From Saprospiraceae bacterium (lineage in GTDB: Bacteria; Bacteroidota; Bacteroidia; Chitinophagales; Saprospiraceae): 64,000 nucleotides of DNA. The stretch lies in the NCBI GenBank assembly GCA_026982695.1, contig JALSGS010000030.1:62001-126000 (forward strand), written 5' to 3'. Both the position numbers and the translations under genes were made by a program. Positions 27,182-64,000 of the stretch are shown here, one piece after another. The notes under the pieces are model-generated. The model did not search any database and was not told where the DNA came from. It worked only from the letters and a program-made list of their open reading frames with translations. The number at the start of each line of letters is the position of its first letter. Position 1 is the stretch's first letter.

Positions 27182-27323
27182 GGGTAGTTGGGATACAGTG
27201 TGCGGAACGCCAATGATTTTTCTCGTTTGGATCGAGGTGTGGGGATCATTTTTGTAAAAACGTGACAGGAAAAGTGGTACAAAAATTGGTGCATGGGTAA
27301 TATATAACAATTATACTTTATCA

Positions 27324-48368: not shown

Positions 48369-49198
48369 GAGTGCGCTTTTTCCAATAAGACAAACTCTTT
48401 GGTGATGAGCAAGTGTAGTGGCCAACGCCTGATCCATCCTTGAGGGATAGCTGCTATGCGGTTGAGAATGCTATGGCTTTTGCGCCAGCGCAATTGTAGG
48501 TCTGTTTGTGCCAATATGGACATCAGCTTTGGATGAGTGAGCTGATTGAGTCCCCGATAAGCCGACAATAAATCTGATTCAAGTTGCCCTACCAGTGGCT
48601 TATTGTGACGGCGGATGAGCCATAGCAACAGAGGCTCGGGCAAATATTGGCACCACGGGATGCCCACTGCATGTACTACGTGGCTGGCATAAGGGCTTTG
48701 CCAAGGTGGATAGGAGATGAAGAGCTGCCCTTCGGGAGTAAGCAGTTGAGAGAATGCGCGAAAGATTTGTGGCAGGTGTTCTATAGGAATGTGTTCGACT
48801 ACATCGTTCATGGCTATGAAGTCGAATGGACCTTCTGGAGGGTCTTCCAGGAGGTTGCGTAGCTCAAAGCGGACATTGCGCACACCATATTTGTCTTGTA
48901 ACTTTTGGGCAATAGCAAGGTGGTGTGCGTCGATGTCGATGCCTATTACTTCGCATTGCCAAGTGGTCGCATACCACAAGCTCATGCCGCCCATGCCACA
49001 GCCAAAATCCAAGATACGCTTGCCATCCAGACGGAAGTGCTGGCGCAGTAGGCGCTTGTCCACCTTGAGGTGAGGTGCATGTTCGTCGATGAAGTTGGTT
49101 TCAGCGTAGGCGATCCCTTCGGCAAACAACTCCATGGGCATATCGGCAAGCGGATGTGGTCTCATTTCATTCATGGGTAGTACGATTAGTTGTGACAT
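48353..49198 (-). CDS. Class I SAM-dependent methyltransferase
   Basis: A 281-residue methyltransferase with motif I I-L-D-F-G-C-G-M-G-G-M-S-L, the acidic E-V-I-G-I-D-I-D at strand 2, F-D-F-I-A-M-N-D-V-V-E-H-I-P at motif IV and a C-terminal half with hydrophobic stretches. In its operon it could methylate a sugar or lipid-linked intermediate of the exopolysaccharide. Start: ATG at 49198, or at 49174 (M-N-E-M-R-P-H). It overlaps the flippase gene by 32 bases. Confidence 0.88.
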   Translation of the reverse strand: MSQLIVLPMNEMRPHPLADMPMELFAEGIAYAETNFIDEHAPHLKVDKRLLRQHFRLDGKRILDFGCGMGGMSLWYATTWQCEVIGIDIDAHHLAIAQKLQDKYGVRNVRFELRNLLEDPPEGPFDFIAMNDVVEHIPIEHLPQIFRAFSQLLTPEGQLFISYPPWQSPYASHVVHAVGIPWCQYLPEPLLLWLIRRHNKPLVGQLESDLLSAYRGLNQLTHPKLMSILAQTDLQLRWRKSHSILNRIAAIPQGWIRRWPLHLLITKEFVLLEKAHSCLST

Positions 49199-50564
49199 GT
49201 GGCTGGGCCTGAGTGGAGGCCGTCGTCTTTGTGGTGCCAGCTCGGTTGCACTGCACTAACGCAATACCTTTTTGGGCAAAAGCCCAACTGTGTACAAAGC
49301 ACCGCCACCACCTCACGTCCAAGTGTTTGCGCAGTTGCCATTGCATCAAGAGGAAGAGTATGAAGTAAGTGAGTAGTGTGCCCCAGGCAGCACCGATTAC
49401 GCCCATTGCATTGATAAACAGAAAGTTGCATGCCATATTGAGTAGTGCTCCCAGAAGGGTGAGCTGAAAATTGAGGCGTTGGTGGCCAATGGCGTCCATG
49501 ATTGTACCAAACTGGACGGCAAAGGGCAGAAAGAGTGCAAACAGTATGGTAATGCGCAGTATGGGCACTGATTGGGCATAACCAGGACCAGCAATGAACT
49601 GGATGCACCAGGGTGCAGTAAGCCATACACCTATTACGGCAGGTACTAATGGGGTCAAAATGGCACCTACTGCTTTTTCGTATAGGATACCTACAGCTTT
49701 TAGGCCTTGTGCCTCGACGCGTAGAGCGGACTGAGGAAAGACAAGGCTGGCTAGGCTATGTGTGGGTACATCTGCTAAGTTGTTGATCTTGATTGCGGCT
49801 TCGTAGAGGGCTATTCCCGTAGCCCCTGCATTGGGCAGAATGCCAAGCATGAGCTTGTCGATGCTCCGGTAGAGCATAGTGCTGAGATTGGTACCCAAGG
49901 TGTATTTGCCAAAAGCCAGCAAAGTGCGCATCCATTGCTTGTCGGGCTTTTGCGGACGGCACAAATAAGGCCAAGCTGTAAAGGTGGCTACGCATGAGCC
50001 AGCAGTAGCCGCACCAACTTGTGCCCAAGCTAAATAGTGTAGTGGCGGAGAGAGCTCTTGCCACCAGAAATAGAGAACAACTAAAAAAAATGTGAGCTGG
50101 CGCACCACATTGCTGTAAAATACCCCTTTGAACGATAGTTGTGCTTGCTGTACGAAATTGAAATGAAAAAACGGAGTGAGTAATAGAGTAGTAAGTGCAT
50201 AGATGCGCAGCAGCGAGGCAAGTAAAGGCAGTTGCAGACTGTGGGCAAGTAGCGGTGCACTTACCCACACGCCCATGCTGATTGTAGCGGCCAACAACAG
50301 GTGAAGCGTCAATGAAGCATAGAACACGGTATTGTAGGTCGGTCCTTGAGCGGGCGCTAAATGCTTGACCAGCCCGTTCTGAATAAGACCTATACGCCCT
50401 ACTTCTAGTATAGATGTGAGCGTGAGCAACAGGGCCCATGTGCCCATAGCCTCCTTGTCGAGTAGGCGGAAAAGCATCCAAAGACTGCCTAGACTGATCA
50501 GGAGTGCGCTGCCTTTTTCCAATAGGGAAAAGATGCCAGACTTGAGCCAAAATGATGCTTTCAA
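49167..50564 (-). CDS. Polysaccharide flippase, Wzx/MOP superfamily
   Basis: A 465-residue membrane protein with about twelve or more helices in the pattern of polysaccharide_synt/Wzx flippases: opening W-L-K-S-G-I-F-S-L-L-E-K-G-S-A-L-L-I-S-L-G, then M-G-T-W-A-L-L-L-T-L-T-S-I-L-E-V-G-R-I-G-L-I-Q-N-G, the mid-protein F-G-K-Y-T-L-G-T-N-L-S-T-M-L-Y-R-S-I-D-K-L-M-L-G. It should move the lipid-linked repeat unit across the inner membrane. The C-terminal 25 residues are polar. It follows the Wzc-like gene after 31 bases. Confidence 0.9.
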   Translation of the reverse strand: MKASFWLKSGIFSLLEKGSALLISLGSLWMLFRLLDKEAMGTWALLLTLTSILEVGRIGLIQNGLVKHLAPAQGPTYNTVFYASLTLHLLLAATISMGVWVSAPLLAHSLQLPLLASLLRIYALTTLLLTPFFHFNFVQQAQLSFKGVFYSNVVRQLTFFLVVLYFWWQELSPPLHYLAWAQVGAATAGSCVATFTAWPYLCRPQKPDKQWMRTLLAFGKYTLGTNLSTMLYRSIDKLMLGILPNAGATGIALYEAAIKINNLADVPTHSLASLVFPQSALRVEAQGLKAVGILYEKAVGAILTPLVPAVIGVWLTAPWCIQFIAGPGYAQSVPILRITILFALFLPFAVQFGTIMDAIGHQRLNFQLTLLGALLNMACNFLFINAMGVIGAAWGTLLTYFILFLLMQWQLRKHLDVRWWRCFVHSWAFAQKGIALVQCNRAGTTKTTASTQAQPHVTTNRTTHE

Positions 50565-50595: not shown

Positions 50596-52746
50596 CTACA
50601 AGTTTCGCATGTCCACTTTGTTGAGTATAGCGCCCAATAGCTTTTTATCCAATGACTTGAGGTAGAAGATACTTTGTTGATCTTGTTGTTCGATGGTATC
50701 GCGTGCCGAGCAAATGAGTACTACTCTTTGGACAAAAGGATCTAGCTCTTTGCTATCGGGAAAGTCGTTGAGTGCTGCTCCTTCCAGAAAGATGAAATCG
50801 AATTGTGTGCGATAGTGATCCAGCATTTGCTTGAATTCTGTTTCAGAAAACACTTCCATGGGCGATCGACCCATGGATTTGTTGCCGATGATGGTGATCG
50901 CTTCGGGGAGGGGGGATAGAACGATACCTATGTCTTGAGGTTGTAGATTGGGGTGAGTGCTGTGTTGGAAGGTGCTTAGGGTATTGTGTCGGAGGTTGGT
51001 ATCGACGATGAGCACGCGCTTGTGTTGTAGAGCCAATGCATAGGCGGTACACAAGATTAAGTACGACTTGCCGGCACCTTTCCGGAGGCTGGTGAATAGC
51101 ACGATTTGTTTTTTGGAGGCGATGAGCTCGTGACGAAGTGCGCGAATGTTTTCGCGAAACAATTGAAGTGGGTTGGGCAAGGATGCTGCTTCAAATAGTT
51201 GCGACAGATGGAGCTGAGGGCTCTGGCTGTCTACTACGGCCACTAGGAGTGGAAGCTCTGTGCGTTGTACAAAGACAGGAGGGCTGTACAAGGTAGTATC
51301 GAGAAAAGCTGCGAGCAAGATGAGCAATACCATGAGCCCGCCTGAAGCGGTGGCTGCAAAGACCGAGATGAGCAGGCGCTTTTTGGGCTTGGGCTTGTCG
51401 GGCAAGGTAGGAGGTTCGAGCAGTCGAATAGGTACTTCCTGATGCTCGCTCTGCAACTTGGCTTCTTTGAGCTTTTCCATCAGTTCTAAATATTCCTTTT
51501 CCAGCACTTGGCGTTCTTGCTCCATGCGCGTCAGCTCGGCATCATTGGCTACCAGCAAGTTGGCTTGCCCACGCAATCGCTCAATTTCCTTGTGCAAGGA
51601 GTGTACAGCGGCTTTTGCCAACTCTAACTCTAGTTCTTTATCGATGCGGGCTTTGAGCAAGGTCTCTACGCGATCTTCTGAATGTGGGCCGCCATCTTGC
51701 CGGAGGTTGGCCAGTCGTGCAATGAGTTTTTCTTGGCGTTGGCGCAATTGGGCAATTTGTTGGGCCAGCTGATGGTTTTTTCGTCCATCTTTCAAGTACT
51801 CGGCATTGAGCTTTTTGATCTGGTCGGTTAGGGCTTGCACTTCTTCGTTGAGGAAGATCGTGCGTGCAAAGGCATCTCCCTTAACGTGGTTACGTGCTAG
51901 GATATACTGATTGAGGCGTTGAATGGCTTTTTCCAGTGCTGGAATCTTTTGGGCTGTGCGTTCGCGTTCGAGTTCCAGTTCGCGCACATGAGCAAGGAGG
52001 TTTTCTTTTTGGCGTGTGATGTCGACTAGGTTGTTCGATCGGCGATATGCTTCAATCTGTGCTTGTTTTTCTTCGAGCAGTTTTTTCTTCTCTTCTACTT
52101 GTTTTTGCCAAAACTCCAATGATTTGCGCTCATCGGCTACCAATTCTTGGCGATATAGCTGAAAAAACTCTTCCAGATATGCCTTAGTGGCAAACAGGGC
52201 CAACTGAGGAGATTCAAAGGTGAATGACAGCTCCAAGTAGTCGGTATCACCTTTGCGCACTATTTCCATATGCTTGAGTAGCGATTCGTAGTCGTAGCCG
52301 TAGGCTTGGGCCAGACGGTTGAGTTGGACAGTAGCTTCCCAAGTGGTTGTATCGGTTTGTAGGGCCAGCGCCACGGGCTGTTGTGCCTTGTGCGTATCGG
52401 TGGTAGGGCGCTTGATTTTGTCAGGTTGGCGAAATGGCTGATCGCTGTATAGCTCGTGTTGAAGTAGACGCCAGCTTAGCCGTTGTACGATAGAGCGCGA
52501 CTTCATGAATTCGATGAGCTGGTTGAAACTGCTTTCAATTTGAAACTTTTGTACAAAGGCCGATTCGCGCTCAATGACGATTCCCTTGTAGTTGAGTATA
52601 CCTGTCTCGATAAGCGCATTGGCTTGATATTGCGAGGGCAATAGACTAATAATGAGAAAGGATAGTATGCCTGTTACGGCCATTGTTGAGCCGACGAGCC
52701 ATTTTCTGCGCCATAAAATAGTCCATAAGTACCCGATGTCCATCAT
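50596..52746 (-). CDS. Wzc-like polysaccharide co-polymerase with ATPase domain
   Basis: A 716-residue chain-length determinant of the Wzz/Wzc type. Domains: N-terminal Wzz with a membrane helix (KWLVGSTMAVTGILSFLIISLL), a long periplasmic coiled coil (about residues 190-430), a second membrane helix near 455-480 (preceded by P-P-T-L-P-D-K-P-K-P-K-K), then a cytoplasmic ATPase: Walker A-like L-R-K-G-A-G-K-S-Y, Walker A' V-L-I-V-D-T-N-L-R and an F-I-F-L-E-G-A-A-L B-like strand. The C-terminus is N-K-V-D-M-R-N-L with no cluster of tyrosines, which autophosphorylating BY-kinases normally carry. It is the first gene of the export operon, with a consensus promoter at 52901-52908. Confidence 0.88.
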   Translation of the reverse strand: MMDIGYLWTILWRRKWLVGSTMAVTGILSFLIISLLPSQYQANALIETGILNYKGIVIERESAFVQKFQIESSFNQLIEFMKSRSIVQRLSWRLLQHELYSDQPFRQPDKIKRPTTDTHKAQQPVALALQTDTTTWEATVQLNRLAQAYGYDYESLLKHMEIVRKGDTDYLELSFTFESPQLALFATKAYLEEFFQLYRQELVADERKSLEFWQKQVEEKKKLLEEKQAQIEAYRRSNNLVDITRQKENLLAHVRELELERERTAQKIPALEKAIQRLNQYILARNHVKGDAFARTIFLNEEVQALTDQIKKLNAEYLKDGRKNHQLAQQIAQLRQRQEKLIARLANLRQDGGPHSEDRVETLLKARIDKELELELAKAAVHSLHKEIERLRGQANLLVANDAELTRMEQERQVLEKEYLELMEKLKEAKLQSEHQEVPIRLLEPPTLPDKPKPKKRLLISVFAATASGGLMVLLILLAAFLDTTLYSPPVFVQRTELPLLVAVVDSQSPQLHLSQLFEAASLPNPLQLFRENIRALRHELIASKKQIVLFTSLRKGAGKSYLILCTAYALALQHKRVLIVDTNLRHNTLSTFQHSTHPNLQPQDIGIVLSPLPEAITIIGNKSMGRSPMEVFSETEFKQMLDHYRTQFDFIFLEGAALNDFPDSKELDPFVQRVVLICSARDTIEQQDQQSIFYLKSLDKKLLGAILNKVDMRNL

Positions 52747-53039: not shown

Positions 53040-53726
53040 TTACAATAGATGAATGCGGGCCATAAGCGAGGGCTTGTTGGCTCTGCTGATGGGGATGACT
53101 TTATTGCCAATGACTAAAGAATTGTCTTCTATGTCTTCAATTTTGCTCATGTTGACAATATAAGTTCGGTGTACGCGGTAGAATCTCGTCTGGTCCAACT
53201 TTTTGTAGATGTTTTTGAGCGTACTGTAGATAATGTGACTGCCTTTTGTGGTTTTGATGCGCACGTAGTCACCTACGTTTTCAAAGTAGAGGATGTCGTC
53301 GTAGTTCAGCCGAAGAAAGCGACCGTCTTCTTTGATGTACACCTCTTCGCTGCTACGTGGCGTCGCATGTAGCAATTGTTGTTGGGCTTTGCCTACGGCT
53401 TCTAAGAATCGGGGCCAAGTGATGGGCTTCTTGAGGTAGTCCACCGCTTTGTATTCGAAGGCTTCATAGGCGTAATCTTTTTTGGCAGTGGTGAAAATGA
53501 CTAGTGGCAAAGTAGGTAGATGTTCGAGTAGCTCGATGCCACTGAGTTTAGGCATCTCTATATCGAGAAATAGCAAGTCAATTTCTTCCTTTTCAAGCCA
53601 TTGTTGAGCTTGTTGGCCGTCGGTAGCTATGCCTACTACTACCAGATAGGGGATCTGTTGGCAGAATCGCATGAGCGATTTGCAGGCTAAGGTGTCGTCA
53701 TCTACGATGAGGCACTTCATTTTCAT
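53040..53726 (-). CDS. LytTR-family response regulator of the EPS locus
   Basis: A 228-residue regulator: receiver at 1-118 (I-V-D-D-D pocket, acceptor Asp in L-L-F-L-D-I-E-M-P, T-T in I-F-T-T-A-K, Lys in Y-L-K-K-P-I) and a LytTR DNA-binding domain at about 130-225 (V-Y-I-K-E-D-G-R-F-L-R-L-N-Y-D-D-I-L-Y-F-E-N-V-G-D-Y-V-R-I, R-V-H-R-T-Y-I-V-N). It is followed by a terminator and by the Wzc-like operon, so it is a good candidate activator or repressor of it. Its receiver is a close paralogue of the receiver-only protein just upstream. Confidence 0.92.
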   Translation of the reverse strand: MKMKCLIVDDDTLACKSLMRFCQQIPYLVVVGIATDGQQAQQWLEKEEIDLLFLDIEMPKLSGIELLEHLPTLPLVIFTTAKKDYAYEAFEYKAVDYLKKPITWPRFLEAVGKAQQQLLHATPRSSEEVYIKEDGRFLRLNYDDILYFENVGDYVRIKTTKGSHIIYSTLKNIYKKLDQTRFYRVHRTYIVNMSKIEDIEDNSLVIGNKVIPISRANKPSLMARIHLL

Positions 53727-53790
53727 GGCGGTGGGTTGAATTGGTTTATTAGATATTGTACAAGTATGGTTTAGGGAATGTGTTGTAGTG

Positions 53791-54141
53791 TCAAAGGAGT
53801 TGACCTATCACTTTTTTAAACTGTTCGTGTGATACGGGTTTGGTGAGTACGGCTGCTGCTCGAGCTGCTGCACCGTTGAGCCGTTCTACTTTGCTCGTTA
53901 CGAGTACGACGTGTTGTGATTGTGAGGGGGGCAGGTGTTTGAGCAGTTGCTTGCCGTCTATGCCAGGCAGATCTAGATCGAGGAAAACAATATCGAACTG
54001 TTGATTTTCCAACATCGATAATGCCTCATGGCCATCAGCACACGCACCAATCACTTGCAAGTGAGGCATTTTGTGGCACAGGCGTTCAAGCGATTTGCGT
54101 GCAATTAAGTCGTCATCTACGATAAGACACTTTTTCTTCAT
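53791..54141 (-). CDS. Receiver-only response regulator
   Basis: A 116-residue protein made of a receiver domain alone: I-V-D-D-D pocket, acceptor Asp in V-F-L-D-L-D-L-P-G, Ser/Thr in L-V-T-S-K and Lys in V-L-T-K-P-V. The first half is strikingly like the LytTR regulator downstream (K-C-L-I-V-D-D-D, K-S-L, R-x-C, P-x-L-x-V-x-G, D-G, F-L-D, L-L-x-H-L-P), so the two probably came from one gene by duplication, with the DNA-binding half lost here. It may shuttle phosphate between the hybrid kinase and other parts. Confidence 0.9.
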   Translation of the reverse strand: MKKKCLIVDDDLIARKSLERLCHKMPHLQVIGACADGHEALSMLENQQFDIVFLDLDLPGIDGKQLLKHLPPSQSQHVVLVTSKVERLNGAAARAAAVLTKPVSHEQFKKVIGQLL

Positions 54142-54189
54142 GTTTGTCTGTGTTTTGGTTAAAAATGAGAAATGTCAAAAGCCCTTTGC

Positions 54190-57093
54190 TTATCCTACTA
54201 CGATTTCACTAGCCTTCATGAGGGTTTTTTTCATTCGTTCTAGGTCGGCTTGCAATACAGGTATCAGTTTTTCGACCTGCTGTTCTAATTGTTCTATTTG
54301 CCCCAACAGTTTGGCAGGGGCAACCTTGGTGATATCGGTATTTTCCAAGATCTCTAACTTGTTGCTGATGTGAGATAGCCCTACCATGAGAAAGTTGGGC
54401 TTGAGCTTGTGTGCGAGTTTTGCGAATGCTTTCCACTCTTCTTTTTGCGCCAGACTTTTTAGTTGGTAGAATTCTTTGAGCGTCACTTTGAGAAAAGTCT
54501 CGAAGATATCGGTGGCATATTCTAGGTCGCCTTCGTAGAAAAATTCCAAATAATTGGTGTCCAATTCGTTGCTAAAGTGGAAGGGATCGTTGTGATTGGC
54601 GGCCTTCATGCTGCGGCCTCCTTTGATGGCGAATTTGTTGAGCAGTTGTTGGAGCTGCTTGGGGGCAAAGGGCTTGGTGAGAAAGTCGTTCATGCCTGCA
54701 TCCAGTGCTTCGCTTTTGCGAGAGGTAAGGGCTGAGGCAGTAAGTGCGATGATAGGAGTTGTTTTATTGGGCCCTTTGCCTTTTCTGATCTGTTGAGTGG
54801 CTTCTATGCCATCCATTAAGGGCATTTGTAGGTCCATAAAGATGAGATCAAAGGATTTGGTAAGGGCCATGTGTAGCCCTTCTTTGCCATTTGTAGCGAG
54901 TTCGAATCGGATGCCCCATTTTTTGAGCAATTCACATATGTATTGTCGATTCATGTAGTTGTCTTCTACTACCAGTACGCGGAAATTGTGTGTGTGGAAG
55001 GATATATCTTCGACCCATTCTTCGCCGATGTGTACGGCTTTTTTACCCGTATCTGTGAAACTCAGGTAGATAGTGAAGGTAGTGCCTTTGCCCAGCTCAC
55101 TTTCTACGTGGATAGAGCCTCCTTGCAGCTCTACGAGGCGTTTGGTAATGGCCAAGCCCAATCCCGTACCTCCGTAGCGGTATTTAATTTCTTGGCTAGC
55201 TTGTTCGAAGTTGTTGAAGATATGGGTGAGGCGTTCTTTGGCAATGCCGATACCCGTATCGAACACTTCTATTTTCAGATCTACGCGTTTGCCTGCTTTA
55301 TTGAGCCGTTCGATGCGAATGCCGAAGTGCCCTTTTTCAGTGAACTTTTCGGCATTGCTCATCAAATTGAGCAAGATCTGATTGAGCATCATATCATCGC
55401 CGATGTAGAGCGTGTCGATAGCAGAATCGATTTCAACACGCACCTCTACGGATTTGTTGGTTGCTTTCATTTTGAAGGTGGCCTCAATATTGCGCACTAG
55501 GCTGTTGAGATCAAATTCGCGCTGTTGTACTTCTACCTTTCCCGACTCGATCTTGGAGATGTCGAGAATGTCCGAGATGAGGTTGTGTAGTATTTGCGCC
55601 GAGCTTTTCAGGGTAGATAGATAGGCCTGTTGGCGTTTGCTGAGTCTTGTGTCGGACAGCAGGTGGGTCATACCAATCACTGCGTTGAGAGGTGTGCGTA
55701 TTTCATGGCTCATGTTGGCCAGGAACAATTTCTCGGCCTGTTGTGCTTCTTCAGCTGATCGCTTGGCTTGTTCTAGTTCTTTGAGCAGCCGTTTTTGGGA
55801 TGTGATGTCTAACAAGGCAGAGATAGATCCAATGATGTGGCCATTGAGGTCGTATCGCGGCGCCATGCTGACCATTGCCCAGAAGAGCTCGCCGTTTTTT
55901 TTGCGGCATTTGAGTTCGAAGAGTGGCATTTGTGCACCCAGTCCTTTTTGCATTAGCTCGCGGGCACGCCCTTTATTGCGTTCGGGGATAATCATTTCCA
56001 GGGGGTCAGTGCCGAGAAGTTCTTTGTGTGAGAAGCCCGTCATGGAACACAATTGTTCGTTGACATCTATAATGCGTCCTTGGTCATCCATTTCCAGTAG
56101 TCCTAATTGCATGCGCTGGATAATGGTGCGGTATTTTTCTTCGTTGGTGCGGATGGTTTGATGAGCGCGTTCTTCGTCGGTTACGTCGCGAAAGTTCCAC
56201 AGGCAGCCCAAATATTGCCCTTCTTCATAGATGGGTACAAAGTCGATGCGAAGCAGCTTGCCGTTTTTCAATTCCCACAATTGGTTGATCTGTTCTTGTT
56301 TGTCTTGCCATACTTGTTGGCTCCACTGACTGAAGCTTTGCTCATCCTGGAAGGCTTTGTGGATGTGTTGAAAGAGTTGCGCGGTGGGCTTTCCAATAAG
56401 CCATTCGGGGCTGATGAGCAAGTGAAAGGTATGACAAAACATTTCATTGACTAAGATGACCTCACCTGTCTCATTGGTCACCAGTGCACCGCTGTGCAGG
56501 TTCTTGATCAGGGCAGCTAGCCGGGTTTGAGTTCGCTTGAACTGAGCTTCGGCTTGCTTTTTATCGGTAATGTCTTGCGCTACACATGCAATTTCAAGAA
56601 TATTGCCTTCTTCGAGTATCAAGTTGGTTTGGATGTGCACCCATAGTATTTGCTGGCCTGGGGTGATTAAAGCTGTTTCGTAATAGCTGCTCAACCTTTT
56701 TTCTTCCATTTGTGCCTTGATCTGCTCCCAGAAAGCCTCGCGCGAGGCGGCTGGCACAAATTGGCGGATGTCGGTGTTGAGTATGTCGGCAGCGCGAATG
56801 CCCAATTTCATGCATCCCCTTTGGTTGATATAGGTGACATTACCCGAAGGGGTGAACTTGAAGACTAAATCGCCAGCTGATTCTACCATCTGTCGATAGG
56901 CCGATTCGCTTTGGCGCAGCGAGTCTGTGACCAAGCGCAAGCGTCGTTGAAAGGCGTGTTCTTTTTCTTGTAGCTCTGTTTGGAGTGCTTGTATTTGTTC
57001 TTTCAGGGCGTGCATGGCCTTTTCGGTAGCCATGCGTGCTTGTTGTTCGCGCTCTAAGAGCCGTTCGAGTACTTCTCTATTTTTTTCAGGCAT
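54190..57093 (-). CDS. Soluble hybrid histidine kinase (PAS-PAS-PAS-HK-REC-HPt)
   Basis: A 967-residue hybrid kinase with no membrane segment. Order: coiled coil (1-65), three PAS domains (about 65-185, 190-310, 315-435), HisKA with phospho-acceptor His463 in M-S-H-E-I-R-T-P-L-N, HATPase (N-L-M-S-N-A-E-K-F-T, D-T-G-I-G-I, G-G-T-G-L-G-L-A-I), a receiver with acceptor Asp754 in I-F-M-D-L-Q-M-P, and a C-terminal HPt domain with His895 in L-A-H-K-L-K-P-N. The whole phosphorelay up to HPt is thus on one chain, and the last phosphate acceptor is likely the receiver-only protein or the LytTR regulator in the next two genes. It senses a cytoplasmic cue, perhaps redox, gas or a small ligand through PAS. 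Confidence 0.95.
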   Translation of the reverse strand: MPEKNREVLERLLEREQQARMATEKAMHALKEQIQALQTELQEKEHAFQRRLRLVTDSLRQSESAYRQMVESAGDLVFKFTPSGNVTYINQRGCMKLGIRAADILNTDIRQFVPAASREAFWEQIKAQMEEKRLSSYYETALITPGQQILWVHIQTNLILEEGNILEIACVAQDITDKKQAEAQFKRTQTRLAALIKNLHSGALVTNETGEVILVNEMFCHTFHLLISPEWLIGKPTAQLFQHIHKAFQDEQSFSQWSQQVWQDKQEQINQLWELKNGKLLRIDFVPIYEEGQYLGCLWNFRDVTDEERAHQTIRTNEEKYRTIIQRMQLGLLEMDDQGRIIDVNEQLCSMTGFSHKELLGTDPLEMIIPERNKGRARELMQKGLGAQMPLFELKCRKKNGELFWAMVSMAPRYDLNGHIIGSISALLDITSQKRLLKELEQAKRSAEEAQQAEKLFLANMSHEIRTPLNAVIGMTHLLSDTRLSKRQQAYLSTLKSSAQILHNLISDILDISKIESGKVEVQQREFDLNSLVRNIEATFKMKATNKSVEVRVEIDSAIDTLYIGDDMMLNQILLNLMSNAEKFTEKGHFGIRIERLNKAGKRVDLKIEVFDTGIGIAKERLTHIFNNFEQASQEIKYRYGGTGLGLAITKRLVELQGGSIHVESELGKGTTFTIYLSFTDTGKKAVHIGEEWVEDISFHTHNFRVLVVEDNYMNRQYICELLKKWGIRFELATNGKEGLHMALTKSFDLIFMDLQMPLMDGIEATQQIRKGKGPNKTTPIIALTASALTSRKSEALDAGMNDFLTKPFAPKQLQQLLNKFAIKGGRSMKAANHNDPFHFSNELDTNYLEFFYEGDLEYATDIFETFLKVTLKEFYQLKSLAQKEEWKAFAKLAHKLKPNFLMVGLSHISNKLEILENTDITKVAPAKLLGQIEQLEQQVEKLIPVLQADLERMKKTLMKASEIVVG

Positions 57094-57104
57094 AAACCAT
57101 CTTT

Positions 57105-57124
57105 TTCATGGGGGGAACCATGAA
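57105..57124 (-). promoter_or_regulatory. Hairpin with C tract just before the hybrid kinase start
   Basis: TTCATGG and CCATGAA form a 7-bp inverted repeat around the loop TTCCCC on the minus strand; together they contain a C6 tract. The element ends 11 bases before the ATG and could mask it. Confidence 0.35.
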
Positions 57125-57133
57125 CGCTCTGCA

Positions 57134-57145
57134 CCTTTATAGGGG
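57134..57145 (-). promoter_or_regulatory. Shared box CCTTTATAGGG (copy 1)
   Basis: This 11-base sequence (plus strand) recurs at 59913-59923. Both copies lie in front of leftward genes of this locus (hybrid kinase and GT2). It lies in the predicted leader here. Confidence 0.25.
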
Positions 57146-57221
57146 GACATTGTACCGTGAAGGGATTAAAATTTGCAGGGTAGGTCAGGTATGGATGAGT
57201 GTGTCGTTCGTCGAGTATGCG

Positions 57222-57230
57222 GCAAATATA
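57222..57230 (-). promoter_or_regulatory. -7 promoter element of the hybrid kinase gene
   Basis: TATATTTGC on the minus strand matches TAnnTTTG exactly. The predicted leader is about 126 bases and includes the C-tract hairpin. The rest of the 388-base gap up to the beta-helix gene shows nothing else clear. Confidence 0.55.
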
Positions 57231-57269
57231 ATAGCCTGCATTTCGGGCATGTGCCGAAATACAGGCTAT
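57231..57269 (-). terminator. Long inverted repeat: terminator of the beta-helix gene and possible operator
   Basis: A 16-bp inverted repeat with one mismatch (ATAGCCTG-x-ATTTCGG and its complement, 7-base loop) ends exactly where the -7 box of the hybrid kinase begins. On the minus strand it is followed by the T-rich TATATTTG. It can end the upstream transcript; it also covers the -33 region of the next promoter and so could bind a regulator. Confidence 0.5.
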
Positions 57270-57481
57270 AAGTGACATGAAAGTCAATGATTGGGCGGTG
57301 AGCTTTTTTCTATATGCCAGTGTTTCTGTGTCTAATGGCTTGAGTTGTACATTATTGTCATTCGGTTTGTTATGGATTTTATATTTGGTTGGGAATTGGG
57401 CAGTTGTTTCATTCACTACTATTTGTGCATGGTGATTCGCTCTCTTTTGTATGTGACATTTTTCAAGCGGAGTGATTTAAG

Positions 57482-58507
57482 TCAAAACTGCATCCCTTCC
57501 GTGTGGGAGCTAAAGTTTTCCCTACCAGTGCAATACTCGGGAAAATTGCGGATGGGAGCTTGTTCATCGGGTTGGTTGCGCTGGAAGAGGCAGTCCACTA
57601 GGTCGGGGGCAGCTTCTCCTTTTAGCCTCACGTTGTAGATAGCTGTGCCAGATACGTATACACTATTTTCGATGAAAGAGCAATTTTTAAGAGTAGGGTT
57701 GCTTTGCCCCTCAACGCCATAGTTGATCATGGCGCCGCCATAATTGGCAGAATTGGCTTGAAATAGGCAGGACTCAAACTGCGGATTAGCCGTGCCATTT
57801 GCACGCCCATCGTTGAAGATGGCGCCTCCGTCTAGGTCACATCTATTAGCTACAAAAGTGCAGTTCTTGAACAGGGGGTTGGCCATTCCTCCCTGGGCAT
57901 TGTTGTAGAAGGCACCACCGTCACGGGCGTAGTTGTTGGCAAAGATACAATTGCGGATAGTAGGGCTGGAGGGTCGTTGGGTGCCGTCGTTATACCAGCC
58001 ACCACCGCTGCGCCTTATACTGCCAAAATGCCCGCTGCCATTGGCCGTGCCATCTGAGATGATGAAGCCATCAATGATGGTAGCGGGGCTGACGCCTTTT
58101 GTGAGTACTACAGTAAAGGCATTGTCTTCAAAGCTTTCTGTGCCTATTTCACCTGAAAGGATAGTGGCATTAGCGACCCAGTCGCGTTGCATAAGACTCG
58201 TTTCATGCCCTGCAAACCCACCGTATAGTTGTACGCCGTCGGGGATAATGAAAGAGAGTGAGCGGTTGTAATCGTTGGTGGTTTTGTAGCTACCTGCTGC
58301 CACCCATATTTGATCGCCTTTTTGGGCAGAAAAGAGAGCAGCTTGAAGATCGCCCGTAGCACGTGCCCATGAACTGCCATCGCCTTTTCCTCCGACTTTT
58401 ACATAGATGATTTTTCCTGAAGTTTCAGTAGCAGAAAACGACTGCCACAGCAACAACCCTGACAGCAAGAAGGTTATTCCTACTACTACGTGCAATATCC
58501 TTTGCAT
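57482..58507 (-). CDS. Exported parallel beta-helix (polymorphic repeat) protein
   Basis: A 341-residue protein with an N-terminal signal or anchor (ILHVVVGITFLLSGLLLW). After Y-V-K-V-G-G-K-G-D-G-S-S-W-A-R-A-T-G-D-L-Q-A-A-L, a start typical of right-handed beta-helix surface proteins, come about six turns with the pattern N-C-x-F-x-x-N-x-A-x-x-G-G-A-x-x-N, as in Chlamydia-type polymorphic outer membrane repeats. No T9SS domain follows; the end is ragged (R-N-F-P-E-Y-C-T-G-R-E-N-F-S-S-H). Either the C-terminus is truncated or the protein stays anchored by its N-terminus. It may bind or modify the exopolysaccharide; this is inference from position. Confidence 0.8.
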   Translation of the reverse strand: MQRILHVVVGITFLLSGLLLWQSFSATETSGKIIYVKVGGKGDGSSWARATGDLQAALFSAQKGDQIWVAAGSYKTTNDYNRSLSFIIPDGVQLYGGFAGHETSLMQRDWVANATILSGEIGTESFEDNAFTVVLTKGVSPATIIDGFIISDGTANGSGHFGSIRRSGGGWYNDGTQRPSSPTIRNCIFANNYARDGGAFYNNAQGGMANPLFKNCTFVANRCDLDGGAIFNDGRANGTANPQFESCLFQANSANYGGAMINYGVEGQSNPTLKNCSFIENSVYVSGTAIYNVRLKGEAAPDLVDCLFQRNQPDEQAPIRNFPEYCTGRENFSSHTEGMQF

Positions 58508-58652
58508 AGCAACTCTTTTTCTGGTTTTCGTGGGGTGTCACGAGGCTGTTGCAAAGGTGTTGATGCCTAAGGTGAAGTGTAGGATTATTTCGTTTTTGGG
58601 TAGAAAATATCTTGTTATTGGTCGAGTGATAGCGATGGATAGGCAGGTAGTG

Positions 58653-59828
58653 TCATTGGATGCGTTGAGCACGTTCCCATAATACACTTTGACGACCACT
58701 GATTAGGCGAAAAAAACCGCGATATACGGCATAATTCATCACGCAGAAGTAGTACGGAATAAAGAAAGCTTTGAAGCGCATAGGGCGACGGGCCAGCAGT
58801 TTGCCAGCTAAGGCCATGCTGTAAAAAGCAATTTGGGTGCCGAAGAGCGTACCATATAGCCAGTGAGTAGGAGCCAACCATCCGTTGGTGATGAAAAGTA
58901 TAGGCAGACTCATAGGAGCAAGCGTCCAGCGTAAAAGCCGATGAGAGATGTATTGAAAGCTAAGCGATCCATAGCGAAAGGGATTGACCAAGCTGCGCAA
59001 GCGCCAGGCGGCTTGTAGGCCACCTGCTGCAATGCGAATCTTTCGCTTGAGTTCTTCCTCTATGGATACCGATTGATTTTCAATGGCATATGCTTGAGGC
59101 TCATACGCCACCCGATAACCGCGCATGGCAATGCGCGTGGTGAGAAAGAAGTCTTCTACAATGGTATCGGATGGCACAGCTTCGTATAAGCAGGTGCGAA
59201 TGGAAAATAACTCTCCTGCAGCACCTACTACGCTGTGCCATTCAGCATCGAGCCGTTTAAGAGTTGATTCGTATTTCCAGTATATACTTTCGCCTGCACC
59301 GGGTGCATCGCCTTTTTCCGGAAGGGCTATGCGTTTTTCACCAGCTACGGCGCCCACTTGTGGATCCCTATAGTGCCTTACTATGTTTTTGATGGCTTGG
59401 GGGTTGACCCAAGTGTTGGCATCGCTGTAAATTACAATAGGCGATTGGACCATGGGCATGACGCGGTTCACAGCTGCAATTTTGCCTTGTCGTTTAGGCT
59501 GATGCGCTAAAATGACTTCGAAAGGACCAGGTGGATGGGCGCTTACTAATTCAGGCGTGCGATCTGTAGAACCATCTGTCACCACCAGAATGCGTAGCTT
59601 GTTAGCTGGATAGTCGAATTGTTGACTGTTGTCTAGTTTTTTTTGGATGAAGTCTTCTTCGTTCCACGCAGCAATGATAAATGTCACATTAGGCCATGTA
59701 TCGGGTGTTGATATAGGTGCTGAAGGCTTGAATAGGCGCTTACATTTTACTAAAAACCATAAAAGTGCTGCATAGCCTATGTAGGTATATAAAGCAATGC
59801 CCAATGCCGTCCAAAAAACAACTTTCAT
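58653..59828 (-). CDS. Membrane glycosyltransferase family 2
   Basis: A 391-residue GT2 enzyme with an N-terminal membrane helix, a GT-A domain (F-I-I-A-A-W-N-E-E-D-F, V-V-T-D-G-S-T-D-R-T, I-V-I-Y-S-D-A-N-T-W, G-A-V-A-G-E-K-R-I, E-D-F-F-L-T-T-R-I-A-M-R-G) and three C-terminal hydrophobic segments. The layout is that of processive or PgaC-like synthases, though the classical Q-x-x-R-W is not plain (R-K-I-R-I-A-A-G-G-L-Q-A). It could make a beta-linked chain or add a single sugar. Confidence 0.88.
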   Translation of the reverse strand: MKVVFWTALGIALYTYIGYAALLWFLVKCKRLFKPSAPISTPDTWPNVTFIIAAWNEEDFIQKKLDNSQQFDYPANKLRILVVTDGSTDRTPELVSAHPPGPFEVILAHQPKRQGKIAAVNRVMPMVQSPIVIYSDANTWVNPQAIKNIVRHYRDPQVGAVAGEKRIALPEKGDAPGAGESIYWKYESTLKRLDAEWHSVVGAAGELFSIRTCLYEAVPSDTIVEDFFLTTRIAMRGYRVAYEPQAYAIENQSVSIEEELKRKIRIAAGGLQAAWRLRSLVNPFRYGSLSFQYISHRLLRWTLAPMSLPILFITNGWLAPTHWLYGTLFGTQIAFYSMALAGKLLARRPMRFKAFFIPYYFCVMNYAVYRGFFRLISGRQSVLWERAQRIQ

Positions 59829-59912
59829 TAATTAGTTTTCTAATTTTCAATAGTATTTGCATTCAGAAGGTGATGCCTATGTAGTGAATGCATGGACCTT
59901 GCATACCTTCCC

Positions 59913-59923
59913 CCTTTATAGGG
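59913..59923 (-). promoter_or_regulatory. Shared box CCTTTATAGGG (copy 2)
   Basis: Same 11 bases as at 57134-57144, here about 90 bases before the start of the leftward GT2 gene. Confidence 0.25.
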
Positions 59924-60077
59924 CTTCCAAGATACTGCCAAAGTGCTTAGTGGGCGTTTGGTCAGTGGGAATATTGAGTGTATCAATTAAAAAAAGTACT
60001 GATTTACATTGTCACTTTTTGTAGAAAGTATTGCTGTGTTTTCATGTGTGTAAATGTGAAAAAATAGTGACTGGAGA

Positions 60078-60100
60078 AAAACAATTAAATTAGTTGTTTT
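60078..60100. promoter_or_regulatory. 23-bp near-perfect palindrome, candidate operator
   Basis: AAAACAA on the left and TTGTTTT on the right flank a TTAA-type core; of 11 base pairs around the central base only one does not match. LytTR proteins bind direct or imperfect repeats rather than this form, so the binder is open. Confidence 0.4.
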
Positions 60101-60261
60101 ATGTATGATTTTTTTTCTAGTTTATATGTACGTTTTGAATGTGTTTTTCTGGAAAAAATTTGTTATGTATTTGTGTGCAAAGTAATTTTATGAGTTGTAT
60201 CTTATCTTCATTGTGACATGACTATTGGGAAATGGAGTTGTGATACGTGAATAAGCTTTTG

Positions 60262-60269
60262 TATCTTTG
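60262..60269 (+). promoter_or_regulatory. -7 promoter element of the rightward EPS genes
   Basis: TATCTTTG matches the consensus exactly. The transcript would start near 60273 and carry a leader of about 170 bases with both C tracts. Confidence 0.55.
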
Positions 60270-60299
60270 AGTAATCAGTGAATTTGACGAGCTAAAGTT

Positions 60300-60332
60300 C
60301 CCCCCACCAGAGAAGTAAAATTATTCCCCCCC
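60300..60332 (+). promoter_or_regulatory. Two C tracts in the leader of the rightward EPS genes
   Basis: AAGTTCCCCCCACC (C6 at 60300-60305) and ATTATTCCCCCCCGTG (C7 at 60326-60332) lie in the predicted leader. The second shares ATTATTCCCCCC and the following G with the leader of the Wzc-like gene. Confidence 0.4.
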
Positions 60333-60441
60333 GTGTTTTTGAGCGCAGTGCTTGTGGGTGGCTAATGTCCTATCTGTCACTTTTTAAGTTAAGGCATTTA
60401 CCTGCAGCACACGAGGTTTTACAATTTTAACCAAAACGACC

Positions 60442-60837
60442 ATGCCTGCAGTGACTGGCAATGCCATCCTTATTGTAGAGGATCAGATAGCTATGCGCTA
60501 TCTGCTTGAAACCTTTCTGGGACGTACCTATGAAGTAGTATCTTGCCGTGATGGTTTAGAAGCTTTTTCTTGGTTAGCAGTTGGTAATGTGCCTGCACTT
60601 GTCGTATTAGATTTGGCTATGCCCCGTCTTGATGGGATGACTTTCCTCACCCAATTGCGTAGTAGTGGGTGGTACCGCGAAGTGCCAGTAATTGTCGTTT
60701 CGGCTGATGGTGCAGAAATGGACGCACAGCAGTGCGCTCAATTGAATGTAGCTGACGTATTGGTAAAGCCTTTTGATCCGAAACGATTACTGCAAACAGT
60801 GGACCAAATATTACATAAGTCTTCTGTGCCTTTATGA
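60442..60837 (+). CDS. Receiver-only response regulator, EPS locus
   Basis: A 131-residue receiver domain alone: I-V-E-D-Q acidic pocket, acceptor Asp in V-V-L-D-L-A-M-P-R-L-D-G, Ser in I-V-V-S-A-D-G and Lys in V-L-V-K-P-F-D. No output domain. It lies 33 bases before the sugar transferase gene, whose N-terminal part resembles a degenerate receiver. The two may interact, or this protein may take phosphate from the hybrid kinase's HPt domain. A CheY-like role in protein contact is likely. Confidence 0.92.
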   Translation: MPAVTGNAILIVEDQIAMRYLLETFLGRTYEVVSCRDGLEAFSWLAVGNVPALVVLDLAMPRLDGMTFLTQLRSSGWYREVPVIVVSADGAEMDAQQCAQLNVADVLVKPFDPKRLLQTVDQILHKSSVPL

Positions 60838-60870
60838 GGCACCTACATCCTGTGAAAGAAACAACACACT

Positions 60871-62001
60871 ATGAACCTAACCCTAGTACACACTCGTACC
60901 AATACTCGCGTTGTATTGGCTGTAGGCTTTGATGGCAAGTTTGCACATTACCTCACTTATGGTACGCTTCAGGGGCAGTACACACGCGAGGAATTGTATC
61001 CTATTCGCTCGTTTGACAACGCCTTTGTATGCTATCGGTGGCTAGCGCGTTATGTTCAACGGATGCCGCAAGGCCAGGAGTATCAACCTTTCTTTATTGC
61101 GATAGATTTAGACCACTTGCTGAGTAGTAAATTTGCTTTGGTGCAAGCTTTGTCCGAACATCCTGTCTTGTGGCGTGTGCCTGTGATTGTAGTGAATCGC
61201 GGACATCCCGGCCACAAATGGAAAGCCATGCACCCAGGGGTAGATGACTGCTATGATTACCCATTGCGATGGGAAGATGTGGCGCGTCGTGCCGAGTTTT
61301 TGTGGCAGTACAAACCGCTCTTTCGCGTGCATGACAAGCCAAATAGTAAAAGCGCACAGGAGACCCTGCCCATATCGGCGTATAAGGTGCCTTGGGCCAA
61401 GCGGCTGTTTGACATTGTTGTGGCAGGAGCAGCATTGCTCGTGTTGAGTCCATTGATGCTACTCATCGCCTTAGCTATTAAATTGGAGTCACGAGGGCCT
61501 GTATTATACGTATCGAAACGTGCTGGGCAGGGCTTCCGTATATTTGATTTTTACAAGTTTCGTTCCATGTACGTCGATGCCGACAAGCGCTTGTCGGAGC
61601 TGGCCCATCTAAATCGCTATGCTGATGATGAGGGACCAGCTTTTCACAAGTTGGAGCACGATCCGCGTGTGACCCGAGTGGGCCGTTTTTTGCGTAGGAC
61701 AAGCCTTGACGAACTACCACAACTATTCAATGTGCTTAAGGGCGACATGAGTATTGTAGGCAACCGGCCCTTACCCCTTTACGAAGCGCAGCAGCTTACT
61801 ACCGATGAGTGGGTGCAGCGATTTTTAGCGCCAGCTGGCTTGACGGGCTTGTGGCAAGTGAAACGAAAAGGACAAAAAAAGATGTCGGCACAGGAACGCG
61901 TACAGCTCGACGTGCAATATGCACGTGAGTGCTCTTTAATCAACGACATGAAGATTGTGATTGAAACCTTGCCAGCACTTATTCAGGAAGAGGAGTGTTG
62001 A
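60871..62001 (+). CDS. Initiating sugar transferase with N-terminal receiver-like domain
   Basis: A 376-residue protein in two parts. The C-terminal 200 residues are a bacterial sugar transferase (PF02397 type, WbaP/PglC-like): [18 protein letters not shown], one membrane helix, [44 protein letters not shown] and a final G-L-T-G-L-W-Q-V. It should load the first sugar phosphate on undecaprenyl phosphate. The N-terminal 150 residues replace the usual four membrane helices and resemble a receiver: [10 protein letters not shown] at strand 3, R-V-P-V-I-V-V-N at strand 4 and [14 protein letters not shown] at strand 5, where the conserved Lys of K-P is Tyr or Asp. Confidence 0.88.
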
Positions 62002-62072: not shown

Positions 62073-63023
62073 ATGAATCGACGAAAGGTGAGCGTCATCA
62101 CCGTGCACTACAATGCGCCTGCGATGACAAGGCGTTTATTGCGTTCGTTGCAGCAGATAGAGGGGGATTACGAGGTCATTGTGGTAGATAATGGCTCTGC
62201 ACCGGTCCATTCAGCTCGGTTGTGGGCCGATGAATTTCCGCAGGTGCGTTTTGTGTATTCAGATGAAAATCTCGGTTTTGCTGGGGGCAATGCGTTAGCA
62301 CTGCCGCATGCGCAGGGGCGTTATTTGTTTTTTCTGAACAACGATGCATTTCCTGATTCGCAGACGATAAGTAGGTTAGTTCAATTTTTAGACGGACACC
62401 CTCGCGCAGGGGCTGTCAGTCCTTTGATTTTGGCTCGAGGCCAAAATGGCCGACCAGCTCAAGTACTTTATGCGGGAAAGACGGCGCTGCATCCGCTTAC
62501 GGGGCGCAATCGCACCTTGAGGCGTGGCACTACGGCCTGGCACTTGTGGCAGGATCCGTTTCGCACAGCATATGTGCATGGTGCTGCCATGATGGTACGA
62601 CGTGAGGTGATCGATCAGGTGGGATTTATGGATGAGCGCTTTTTTCTGTACTACGAAGAGCTCGACTGGGCTGAGCGCATGCGCTCAGTGGGTTGGGAGT
62701 TGTGGGTAGAGCCACGGGCACATGTATGGCATGATGAATCTTACACGATCGGGCCACAAAGTGGTTTGAAAGTGTTTTTTCAAACTCGGAATCGCTGGTA
62801 TTTTATGTGGCGAAACCGACCTACTTGGGCCTTTGCCGCATTCGCGGCATGGTTTTTTGCAGTAGTTATTCCCAAGCAGTGGTTGGCTTTTGCCCGAAAG
62901 GGCTACGGCGTACAGCGGCGTGCAGTCATTGATGCGTTGAGATGGGTATTGGGTAGTCAGGCCAACCGCCGCCGCATCGATGCGCGGTGGAAAGCTGCTG
63001 CATCTAATGGTGTAAATGTCTGA
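62073..63023 (+). CDS. Glycosyltransferase family 2 (rhamnosyltransferase-like)
   Basis: A 316-residue soluble GT2 enzyme of the GT2 RfbF-like group: S-V-I-T-V-H-Y-N-A-P at the start, V-I-V-V-D-N-G-S-A-P, E-N-L-G-F-A-G-G-N-A-L-A, Y-L-F-F-L-N-N-D-A-F-P (the metal-binding D-x-D equivalent), V-H-G-A-A-M-M-V-R-R-E-V, G-F-M-D-E-R-F-F-L-Y-Y-E-E-L-D-W-A-E-R. The C-terminus carries a hydrophobic stretch (W-A-F-A-A-F-A-A-W-F-F-A-V-V-I). It should transfer one sugar in the exopolysaccharide unit. The next GT2 gene starts 6 bases after its stop. Confidence 0.92.
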   Translation: MNRRKVSVITVHYNAPAMTRRLLRSLQQIEGDYEVIVVDNGSAPVHSARLWADEFPQVRFVYSDENLGFAGGNALALPHAQGRYLFFLNNDAFPDSQTISRLVQFLDGHPRAGAVSPLILARGQNGRPAQVLYAGKTALHPLTGRNRTLRRGTTAWHLWQDPFRTAYVHGAAMMVRREVIDQVGFMDERFFLYYEELDWAERMRSVGWELWVEPRAHVWHDESYTIGPQSGLKVFFQTRNRWYFMWRNRPTWAFAAFAAWFFAVVIPKQWLAFARKGYGVQRRAVIDALRWVLGSQANRRRIDARWKAAASNGVNV

Positions 63024-63028
63024 TTTTT

Positions 63029-64000
63029 ATGGAACTAGTACAAGGCGTTTTTGGTGTAGTGGCAGTAGCCTTTGCCTTTTTTCTGCTGTGGCCTTTTGTG
63101 ATGGTAATCGTATCGCGCAGATGCGGCGAAAAGCTAACGCCACAGGACCCAAATGCTACACCTGACTATGCCTGCATTGTCACTGCCTGGAAAGATGTGG
63201 CCATAGCACGGCCATTGGTGGCGTCTTTGTTGCAACAGACCTGGCCTCATCTACACATCTACCTGGTAGCCGATCGCTGTTCGGCCCAGCAGTGGGACTT
63301 GCACGATAGGCGCCTGACAGTGTTGTTTCCCGAGCAAGCGCTCGACCTCAAGGTAAAGAGCATTGCTTATGCAGTCGCGCGCTTTGTCCGCCCCCATGAC
63401 TACACAATTGTATTTGATGCCGATAATCTGGCCCATCCGCGTATGTTAGAAGTTTTGAGCCGATACGTACAAGCAGGATGGAAGGCTATACAGGGCCAAC
63501 GACGAGCTAAGAATCTCGACACCGTCATTGCTTGTGCCGATGCTACGGGTGAGTTTTACAAAAACTACGTAGAGCGCTATGTGCCCTGGTTGTTGGGCAG
63601 TTCTGCGGTAATTTCGGGCTCGGGTATGGCTGTACATTCCAATTTGTACAGAGCGTGGTTAAACAGTTCTGAGGTGGTGCGTGGGCAAATGCAGGGCCGA
63701 CGCATGATGCAGGAAGACAAGATTTTGCAAAATTGGTTAGTAGGTCGCAATCATCGCATTGCATGGGCCCGAGAAGCGGTGGTGTATGACGAAAAGGTGA
63801 CTACGCCTCGGGCTGCACGAACCCAGCGAAGTCGGTGGCTGTTTTCGTATTTTCAAAACGTGCCTTATGCACTAGGACTACTGTGGCAGGGGATCCGCAG
63901 TGGTAGTTGGAATCAAGTATTGTTTGGCATCCTCACTTCCATGCCTCCTTTATTGTTCACCGTAGGTGGCGCTGTACTTTGGGCCTTTCTGGGGTTGTGG
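63029..64000 (+). CDS. Membrane glycosyltransferase family 2 (partial, 3' end outside window)
   Basis: An ATG at 63029 opens a frame that runs to the window end (324 codons). The protein starts with a membrane helix (VFGVVAVAFAFFLLWPFVMVIV), then a GT-A domain: Y-A-C-I-V-T-A-W-K-D, I-Y-L-V-A-D-R-C-S, Y-T-I-V-F-D-A-D-N-L with the D-x-D motif, G-S-G-M-A-V-H-S-N-L-Y and Q-E-D-K-I-L-Q-N-W-L-V, then R-T-Q-R-S-R-W and further hydrophobic segments. The R-x-x-R-W motif (Q-R-S-R-W) is that of processive or membrane-integrated GT2 synthases. It follows the previous GT2 gene by 5 bases. Confidence 0.88.
   Translation, partial: MELVQGVFGVVAVAFAFFLLWPFVMVIVSRRCGEKLTPQDPNATPDYACIVTAWKDVAIARPLVASLLQQTWPHLHIYLVADRCSAQQWDLHDRRLTVLFPEQALDLKVKSIAYAVARFVRPHDYTIVFDADNLAHPRMLEVLSRYVQAGWKAIQGQRRAKNLDTVIACADATGEFYKNYVERYVPWLLGSSAVISGSGMAVHSNLYRAWLNSSEVVRGQMQGRRMMQEDKILQNWLVGRNHRIAWAREAVVYDEKVTTPRAARTQRSRWLFSYFQNVPYALGLLWQGIRSGSWNQVLFGILTSMPPLLFTVGGAVLWAFLGLW

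Follow-up and report, generated by a model that had tools for sequence, protein, structure and literature searches.

In Myxococcus xanthus it has been demonstrated by experiment that phosphorylated EpsW activates the phosphoglycosyl transferase (PGT) EpsZ (PMC12802240). EpsZ is one of the large monoPGTs and has both a transmembrane bundle and a DUF, activation is thought to occur via dimerisation, and the phosphate on EpsW is supplied by the Dif kinase DifE. The same paper refers to an earlier sequence-network study that noted receiver domains in small monoPGTs (PMC12802240). The second system of relevance is the Vibrio fischeri relay HnoX-HahK-SypF-SypG/SypE, in which a nitric oxide-sensing HnoX is found with a kinase and the signal passes an HPt step; one regulator serves transcription and another acts later on the same polysaccharide (PMC12369376).

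Here we compare these systems with an exopolysaccharide (EPS) locus of a Saprospiraceae bacterium (GCA_026982695.1, contig JALSGS010000030.1) in which a single-domain receiver (SDRR) is encoded beside a PGT. The window, by which we mean the whole 64,000-nucleotide stretch that was analysed, comprises bases 62001-126000 of a 131 kb contig from a genome of 3.84 Mb. A search of open-licence PMC papers by titles and the starts of abstracts, which is a weak instrument, found no description of the Bacteroidota SDRR-PGT pair.

Gene content of the locus

The initial annotation proposed a possible phosphorelay-wired EPS machine, and all of the parts that it named are present (Table 1). Wzc-like, Wzx-type, Wzy_C and GT2 genes make up the EPS neighbourhood, and the LytTR regulator and two receiver-only proteins are found as described. 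The priming sugar transferase has a strong catalytic match (Bac_transf, PF02397, 1.2e-62, above the cut-off) and an N-terminal domain that is receiver-like in its predicted fold. In the hybrid kinase three PAS stretches are followed by HisKA, HATPase and receiver domains. Its C-terminus, searched as a segment alone, scores 20.4 bits against PF01627 (HPt), below the Pfam cut-off of 24.6, and carries the motif AHKLKP, which has a similar form in most kinase homologues; the homologues in L068 and L070 pass the cut-off. The best 19-residue Kyte-Doolittle mean of the kinase is 1.06, and because there is no strongly hydrophobic stretch the protein is probably soluble, in keeping with the claim that it has no membrane part.

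The listed parts fall into two units, the SDRR with the PGT and the kinase with the LytTR regulator. The kinase and PGT genes lie on opposite strands with 3.8 kb between them. The gene for the 341-aa protein has a counterpart in the kinase locus of the sister species, and past the window end, 3' of the last glycosyltransferase-like gene, lie genes labelled by inspection as SGNH- and MBOAT-like.

Table 1. Features of the locus, in window coordinates
Feature	Position	Strand	Length	Remarks
Wzy_C / O-antigen ligase-like polymerase	45613..47040	-		
Wzx-type flippase	49167..50564	-		Polysacc_synt
Wzc-like protein	50596..52746	-	716 aa	Wzz domain, weak AAA match
LytTR-type response regulator	53040..53726	-	228 aa	
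R4, receiver-only protein	53791..54141	-	116 aa	
Hybrid histidine kinase	54190..57093	-	967 aa	PAS-HisKA-HATPase-REC-HPt-like
341-aa protein	57482..58507	-	341 aa	Weak Chlam_PMP repeat match; beta-helix-like by inspection
GT2 glycosyltransferase	58653..59828	-		Homologue in 13/39 SDRR-PGT loci checked
SDRR (single-domain receiver)	60442..60837	+	131 aa	Conserved neighbour of PGT
PGT (monotopic phosphoglycosyl transferase)	60871..62001	+	376 aa	Starts 33 nt past SDRR; predicted pseudoreceiver about 12-155, then Bac_transf catalytic domain 177-371
GT2 glycosyltransferase	62073..63023	+		Homologue in 22/39 SDRR-PGT loci checked
Glycosyltransferase-like gene	63029..64000, runs off window	+		Label by inspection; homologue in 25/39 loci

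Conservation of the SDRR-PGT pair

The PGT was used as a query in 100 relatives, a subset of which have homologues reaching into the N-terminal domain. With the window counted and all open reading frames (ORFs) considered, the SDRR gene directly precedes the PGT gene, in the same orientation, in 24 of the 25 loci among relatives; the exception, L043, has a different ORF upstream, cut by the contig end. Searched with the SDRR, the same 100 relatives give matches of which ranks 1-18 all adjoin a PGT of the pseudoreceiver type. A GTDB scan with the PGT, from which the best 80 of at least 595 relatives were kept, extends the pairing. Among these best 80 the SDRR is adjacent in 15/15 named Bacteroidota PGTs of the pseudoreceiver type (353-537 bits; Saprospiraceae, Desertivirga, Mucilaginibacter, Pedobacter, Pinibacter, Sediminibacterium, Dawidia, Hymenobacter, Rufibacter, Flavobacterium, Prevotellaceae and others) and in 0/67 of the remaining PGT hit rows, which score 237 bits or less and come mostly from other phyla. 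For a survey of the phylum 395 genomes were drawn, 44 of which, our own among them, have a PGT match at 1e-85. Forty loci were fetched from 47 places, our own and G079 already being in other sets and G220, G190, G440, G327 and G339 also being left out, and the SDRR is adjacent in 35 of the 40. It is adjacent in none of 20 control PGTs, which are other Bacteroidota PGTs taken from the relatives.

Pooling gives 79 loci without the window, in which the N-domain class was set by length (at least 330 aa, or shorter). The SDRR is directly upstream in 69 of the 71 long PGTs and adjacent in 4/8 of the short ones, and for each of the remaining four short PGTs a same-strand receiver is encoded about 2.2-2.5 kb upstream. 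The two long PGTs without an adjacent SDRR are that of L043 and that of L189, which has an H-NOX-kinase set upstream and a 90%-identical relative, L191, with an SDRR. Four pairs in the pool (L047/L079, L092/L195, L179/L181 and L189/L191) have PGTs that are 90-95% identical, so the 79 loci are not fully independent. The association of SDRR and PGT against the 20 controls has a Fisher probability of 3.5e-18, and the two genes form a conserved pair far beyond chance. The pairing of a free receiver with a receiver-like priming enzyme, originally noticed at one locus, is thus tightly conserved.

Distances between SDRRs and between PGT N-domains also correlate, with a coefficient of 0.60 over 37 loci, a value reached in 0/2000 permutations. 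With the catalytic domain removed the coefficient is 0.53, so that the correlation extends beyond that domain, with shared ancestry removed only partly.

A predicted pseudoreceiver and a proposed switch

The N-terminal part of the window PGT has no Pfam match at E<=1, and 4/19 members of the PGT family match Response_reg, the best at 2.8e-05. An AlphaFold model (full-chain pTM 0.55) places strands and helices of the N-domain in receiver order, (beta-alpha)5, with block pLDDT mostly 80-94 in residues 11-150, dropping to 54-64 in residues 21-40. Foldseek with this model returned PglC and WbaP, followed by receivers in the PDB (RR468, PhoB, DivK, FrzS and others), which were placed on the N-domain by target length and inference since the list gives no aligned ranges. 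The acidic pair is absent in 39/39 rows of the N-domain alignment, a residue pattern on which we reject a phosphorylatable receiver; the acceptor column holds Asp in 16/39, including D79 of the window protein. The N-domain therefore looks like a receiver by predicted fold without the acidic pair, that is, a pseudoreceiver.

We consider it probable, though well short of assured, that the SDRR, once phosphorylated, docks on the pseudoreceiver to switch the priming PGT, making up a two-protein switch with exchangeable kinases. The target of such a device would be the first committed step in making a Wzx/Wzy-type exopolysaccharide. The SDRR would be phosphorylated on D57 and would then dock on the phospho-dead domain fused to the PGT, and docking would change, most likely raise, PGT activity, by which the lipid carrier receives its first sugar. 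The feeding kinases would be exchangeable and in most loci would lie elsewhere, while in some lineages receiver+HPt hybrid kinases, or H-NOX/HNOBA kinases that would sense gas, adjoin the pair, accompanied by a regulator of the LytTR or sigma-54 type. With such genes beside the pair, enzyme activity and transcription could share one relay. The model is built on the gene pairing, the residue pattern, the predicted fold, the lineage of the kinase and the recurrence of the gene set, from which we infer SDRR phosphorylation, docking and the direction of the effect; activation as that direction is taken over from EpsW-EpsZ (PMC12802240). In some members of the family the PGT has no pseudoreceiver and the SDRR is kept, so the catalytic domain may take part in docking. 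A model of the SDRR fused to the PGT (pTM 0.59) gave no readable interface.

Origin of the window kinase

The best full-length matches of the window kinase outside its genus are in H-NOX-kinase-LytTR operons. H-NOX genes are carried by 26/100 relatives, and in 11 of the 23 neighbourhoods read (all ORFs considered; G011, G069 and G076 left out) an H-NOX gene, an HPt-bearing kinase and a LytTR gene stand side by side. In a kinase tree that leaves out the kinases of L044, L080 and L217, the window and sister kinases share a 16-row set (97/90) with every one of the 11 kinases from the H-NOX-LytTR operons; the set also holds three kinases without H-NOX beside them. A second tree groups the window kinase with H-NOX-operon kinases at 100/98. 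By its sequence, then, the window kinase belongs to the lineage of H-NOX-operon kinases.

H-NOX has 0 matches in the window's own genome and in the sister genome, which would reflect loss rather than primary absence. In the sister species kinase and PGT are on different contigs, and there is no Wzc match in the 3.3 kb examined 3' of the LytTR gene. A former H-NOX-linked module, lacking its sensor and carrying a duplicate of its receiver, would thus have moved in among the EPS genes of this genus. In the relatives read, no orthologue of the window kinase adjoins the PGT, and we reject this kinase as a conserved partner of the PGT; the co-conservation that the initial annotation expected of it with the fused transferase was not found, its orthologues being elsewhere. 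That it feeds the SDRR is suggested by neighbourhood and analogy.

Kinases and H-NOX genes near the pair

Flank lengths and taxonomy differ between the sets in which kinase adjacency was counted. Kinase genes occur in 12/40 loci of the phylum survey (p 0.005 against 0/20 controls), in 3/15 named loci (p 0.07) and in 2/24 loci of close relatives (p 0.49, not significant). Pooled, they occur in 17/79 SDRR-PGT loci against 0/20 controls (p 0.02), a comparison in which taxonomy is unmatched, the controls having been taken from relatives and the survey loci from across the phylum. LytTR regulators are found in 7/79 loci, all in the survey, against 0/20 controls, and five of the seven are confirmed by Pfam.

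Several of these loci resemble the window in architecture. A Pfam HPt is present in the kinases at L054, L088, L091, L187, L188, L190, L206, L215 and L216, and an HPt below the cut-off at L182. At L054, L088 (Hymenobacter), L091 (Rufibacter), L190, L215 and L216 the gene of a receiver+HPt hybrid kinase directly precedes that of the SDRR, both in one orientation. The order at L190 is sigma-54 regulator, H-NOX, HNOBA kinase with receiver and HPt, SDRR and PGT; genes resembling wza and wzc by inspection come after the PGT. L201 and L239+L195 share the order receiver, H-NOX, kinase, FIST-like gene, kinase, HPt-like gene and LytTR, with the SDRR-PGT pair about 1 kb past the LytTR gene in the former and about 15 kb past it, with mostly EPS-like genes (by inspection) between, in the latter. 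Small HPt-like proteins near the pair in three genomes were found with a home-made profile (1e-12 to 1e-16); the two of the three sent to Pfam have no match there. The kinases at SDRR-PGT loci come from several clades, so recruitment has probably occurred more than once. The expected co-occurrence across Bacteroidota therefore holds in part: similar sets with other HPt kinases and LytTR regulators recur in distant members of the phylum, and it is the window kinase, not the architecture, that lacks co-conservation.

In a few of the lineages a gene nearby likely encodes a nitric oxide sensor (H-NOX). H-NOX is rare in the phylum (14/198 genomes) and lies within 25 kb of this PGT type in G177, G219, G243, where three opposite-strand genes intervene, G396, where the H-NOX was identified by a home-made H-NOX profile only, and G435. 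In the 198-genome draw the two are within 25 kb in 3/5 genomes having both (binomial 1.3e-05 for p = 50/4500 kb). None of the six relatives with both (G010, G015, G017, G037, G049 and G055) has them within 25 kb, the genes being on different contigs, and pooling gives 3/11 genomes (binomial 2e-04). The link between H-NOX and the PGT looks real in some lineages and absent in others.

These counts bear on an explanation that shares the switch with the one we favour and differs on the kinase. The SDRR-PGT switch would be real and fed by a kinase encoded elsewhere, and the kinase-R4-LytTR operon would serve the transcription of EPS or other genes and be nearby by rearrangement. We rate this at slightly below an even chance. 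No kinase lies within the DNA fetched in 62/79 SDRR-PGT loci (22/24 among relatives), which fits it well, as do the placement of window-kinase orthologues away from the PGT and the separate lineage of R4 and LytTR from the SDRR. The recurrence of hybrid HPt kinases, LytTR and H-NOX near the pair in several lineages, however, is not what it predicts, nor is the lack of both kinase and LytTR genes in all 20 controls.

SDRR phosphosites and the role of R4

The window SDRR has a complete set of phosphosites (E13/D14/D57/S87/K109), and the acidic pair, D57, S/T and K are all kept in 33/38 SDRRs, with part of the set missing in L040, L049, L083, L084 and L085. The SDRR might instead serve as a sink for phosphate or as an adaptor positioning the PGT, with no allosteric switch. 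A tethering pair would equally predict the joint conservation of pseudoreceiver and SDRR, and the five incomplete SDRRs agree with it. Retention of every phosphosite in the other 33 would be needless for a pure scaffold, however, and EpsZ activity is stimulated by EpsW (PMC12802240), so that we regard this explanation as unlikely.

R4 does not appear to be a second receiver of this kind. In a receiver tree covering nine of the SDRRs it groups with LytTR receivers, apart from the SDRRs, at 99/95 on a long branch, the bootstrap not being settled, and this separation led us to reject two equivalent free receivers. A counterpart beside the kinase was seen only in the sister species among 10 kinase loci, read with a greedy ORF picker that hides some genes behind antisense ORFs, and nothing was found that ties R4 to the PGT. 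The initial proposal that R4 acts on the PGT is thus not supported. The relay as first drawn, in which the kinase HPt feeds LytTR, R4 and SDRR and both free receivers act on the PGT, is consistent with the closeness of the genes in the window and with analogous gene sets in L201, L206, L215, L216 and L239+L195, but the grouping of R4 and its presence beside the kinase only in the sister species speak against it, and we hold it to be very improbable.

Discussion

The Bacteroidota SDRR-PGT pair is best read, by analogy, as a variant of the Myxococcus EpsW-EpsZ principle. As with EpsW-EpsZ, a single-domain receiver with intact phosphosites is encoded beside a PGT. Unlike EpsZ, with its N-terminal transmembrane bundle and DUF, the PGT here has no N-terminal hydrophobic segment, its hydrophobic 19-residue windows starting only at 178-189, at the catalytic domain, and has the predicted pseudoreceiver in its place. 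EpsW is fed by DifE, whereas the Bacteroidota pair is linked to H-NOX or HPt kinases by neighbourhood. The likeness to the Vibrio fischeri relay would lie in an H-NOX that goes with its kinase, in an HPt step and in the division between transcription and a later step. According to the available part of PMC12369376, however, SypE acts through SypA and not on a PGT, the transcription regulator is SypG where the window locus has LytTR, and HnoX is present where the window's genome has no H-NOX.

A broader proposal is that Bacteroidota possess a widespread phosphorelay- and gas-gated form of EPS initiation, in which H-NOX/PAS kinases would act via HPt on LytTR or sigma-54 regulators and on the SDRR-pseudoreceiver-PGT at once. 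This we hold to be doubtful, though somewhat less so than the sink or adaptor.

The recurrence of the pair may mean that the first step of matrix production is switched directly by a phosphate signal. If the proposed switch is correct, the EpsW-EpsZ principle would extend to the Bacteroidota and to a PGT architecture that brings its own docking domain, and matrix-production switching in this phylum would become testable with two purified proteins. In some lineages the pair would tie the control of priming to H-NOX gas sensing, and if the broader proposal also holds, nitric oxide or a related signal would set matrix production at its first step, without awaiting new proteins.

Additional genes in the window and its genome

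The window contains an additional LytTR regulator gene with an adjoining His_kinase (PF06580) gene, and together these resemble a LytS-type pair. Poly_export (Wza-type) matches in the same genome number two (G000:C34 and G000:C58), neither of which lies on the window's contig.

Variation among related loci

In one subfamily of the phosphoglycosyl transferase (PGT), from loci L053–L057, the alignment places an insertion within the catalytic domain, N-terminal to the conserved NDPR motif, and split matches suggest that the PGTs of L086–L093 perhaps carry the same insertion. Where the PGT lacks the receiver-like N-terminal domain, in L209 and L218, a gene of 673–678 amino acids sits between the single-domain receiver (SDRR) and the PGT; in L215 a 741-amino acid gene is found nearby. 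Two of the EPS clusters containing the gas sensor H-NOX (L189 and L239) share the gene order H-NOX-side kinase, FIST-domain protein and second kinase.

Coordinates of genes in the window and related loci
Feature	Locus	Position	Strand	Basis
LytTR regulator and His_kinase (PF06580)	window	25360–27310	(-)	
Gene between SDRR and PGT	L209	4060–6081	(-)	
Gene between SDRR and PGT	L218	7605–9641	(+)	
FIST-domain protein	L189	5365–6498		Pfam
FIST-domain protein	L239	6713–7846		inspection

Phosphosites are lost from the SDRRs of relatives in two cases, L040 (genome G037) and L049 (G055), and no GT2b homologue was found in either cluster. These SDRRs and their clusters could possibly represent a constitutive variant.
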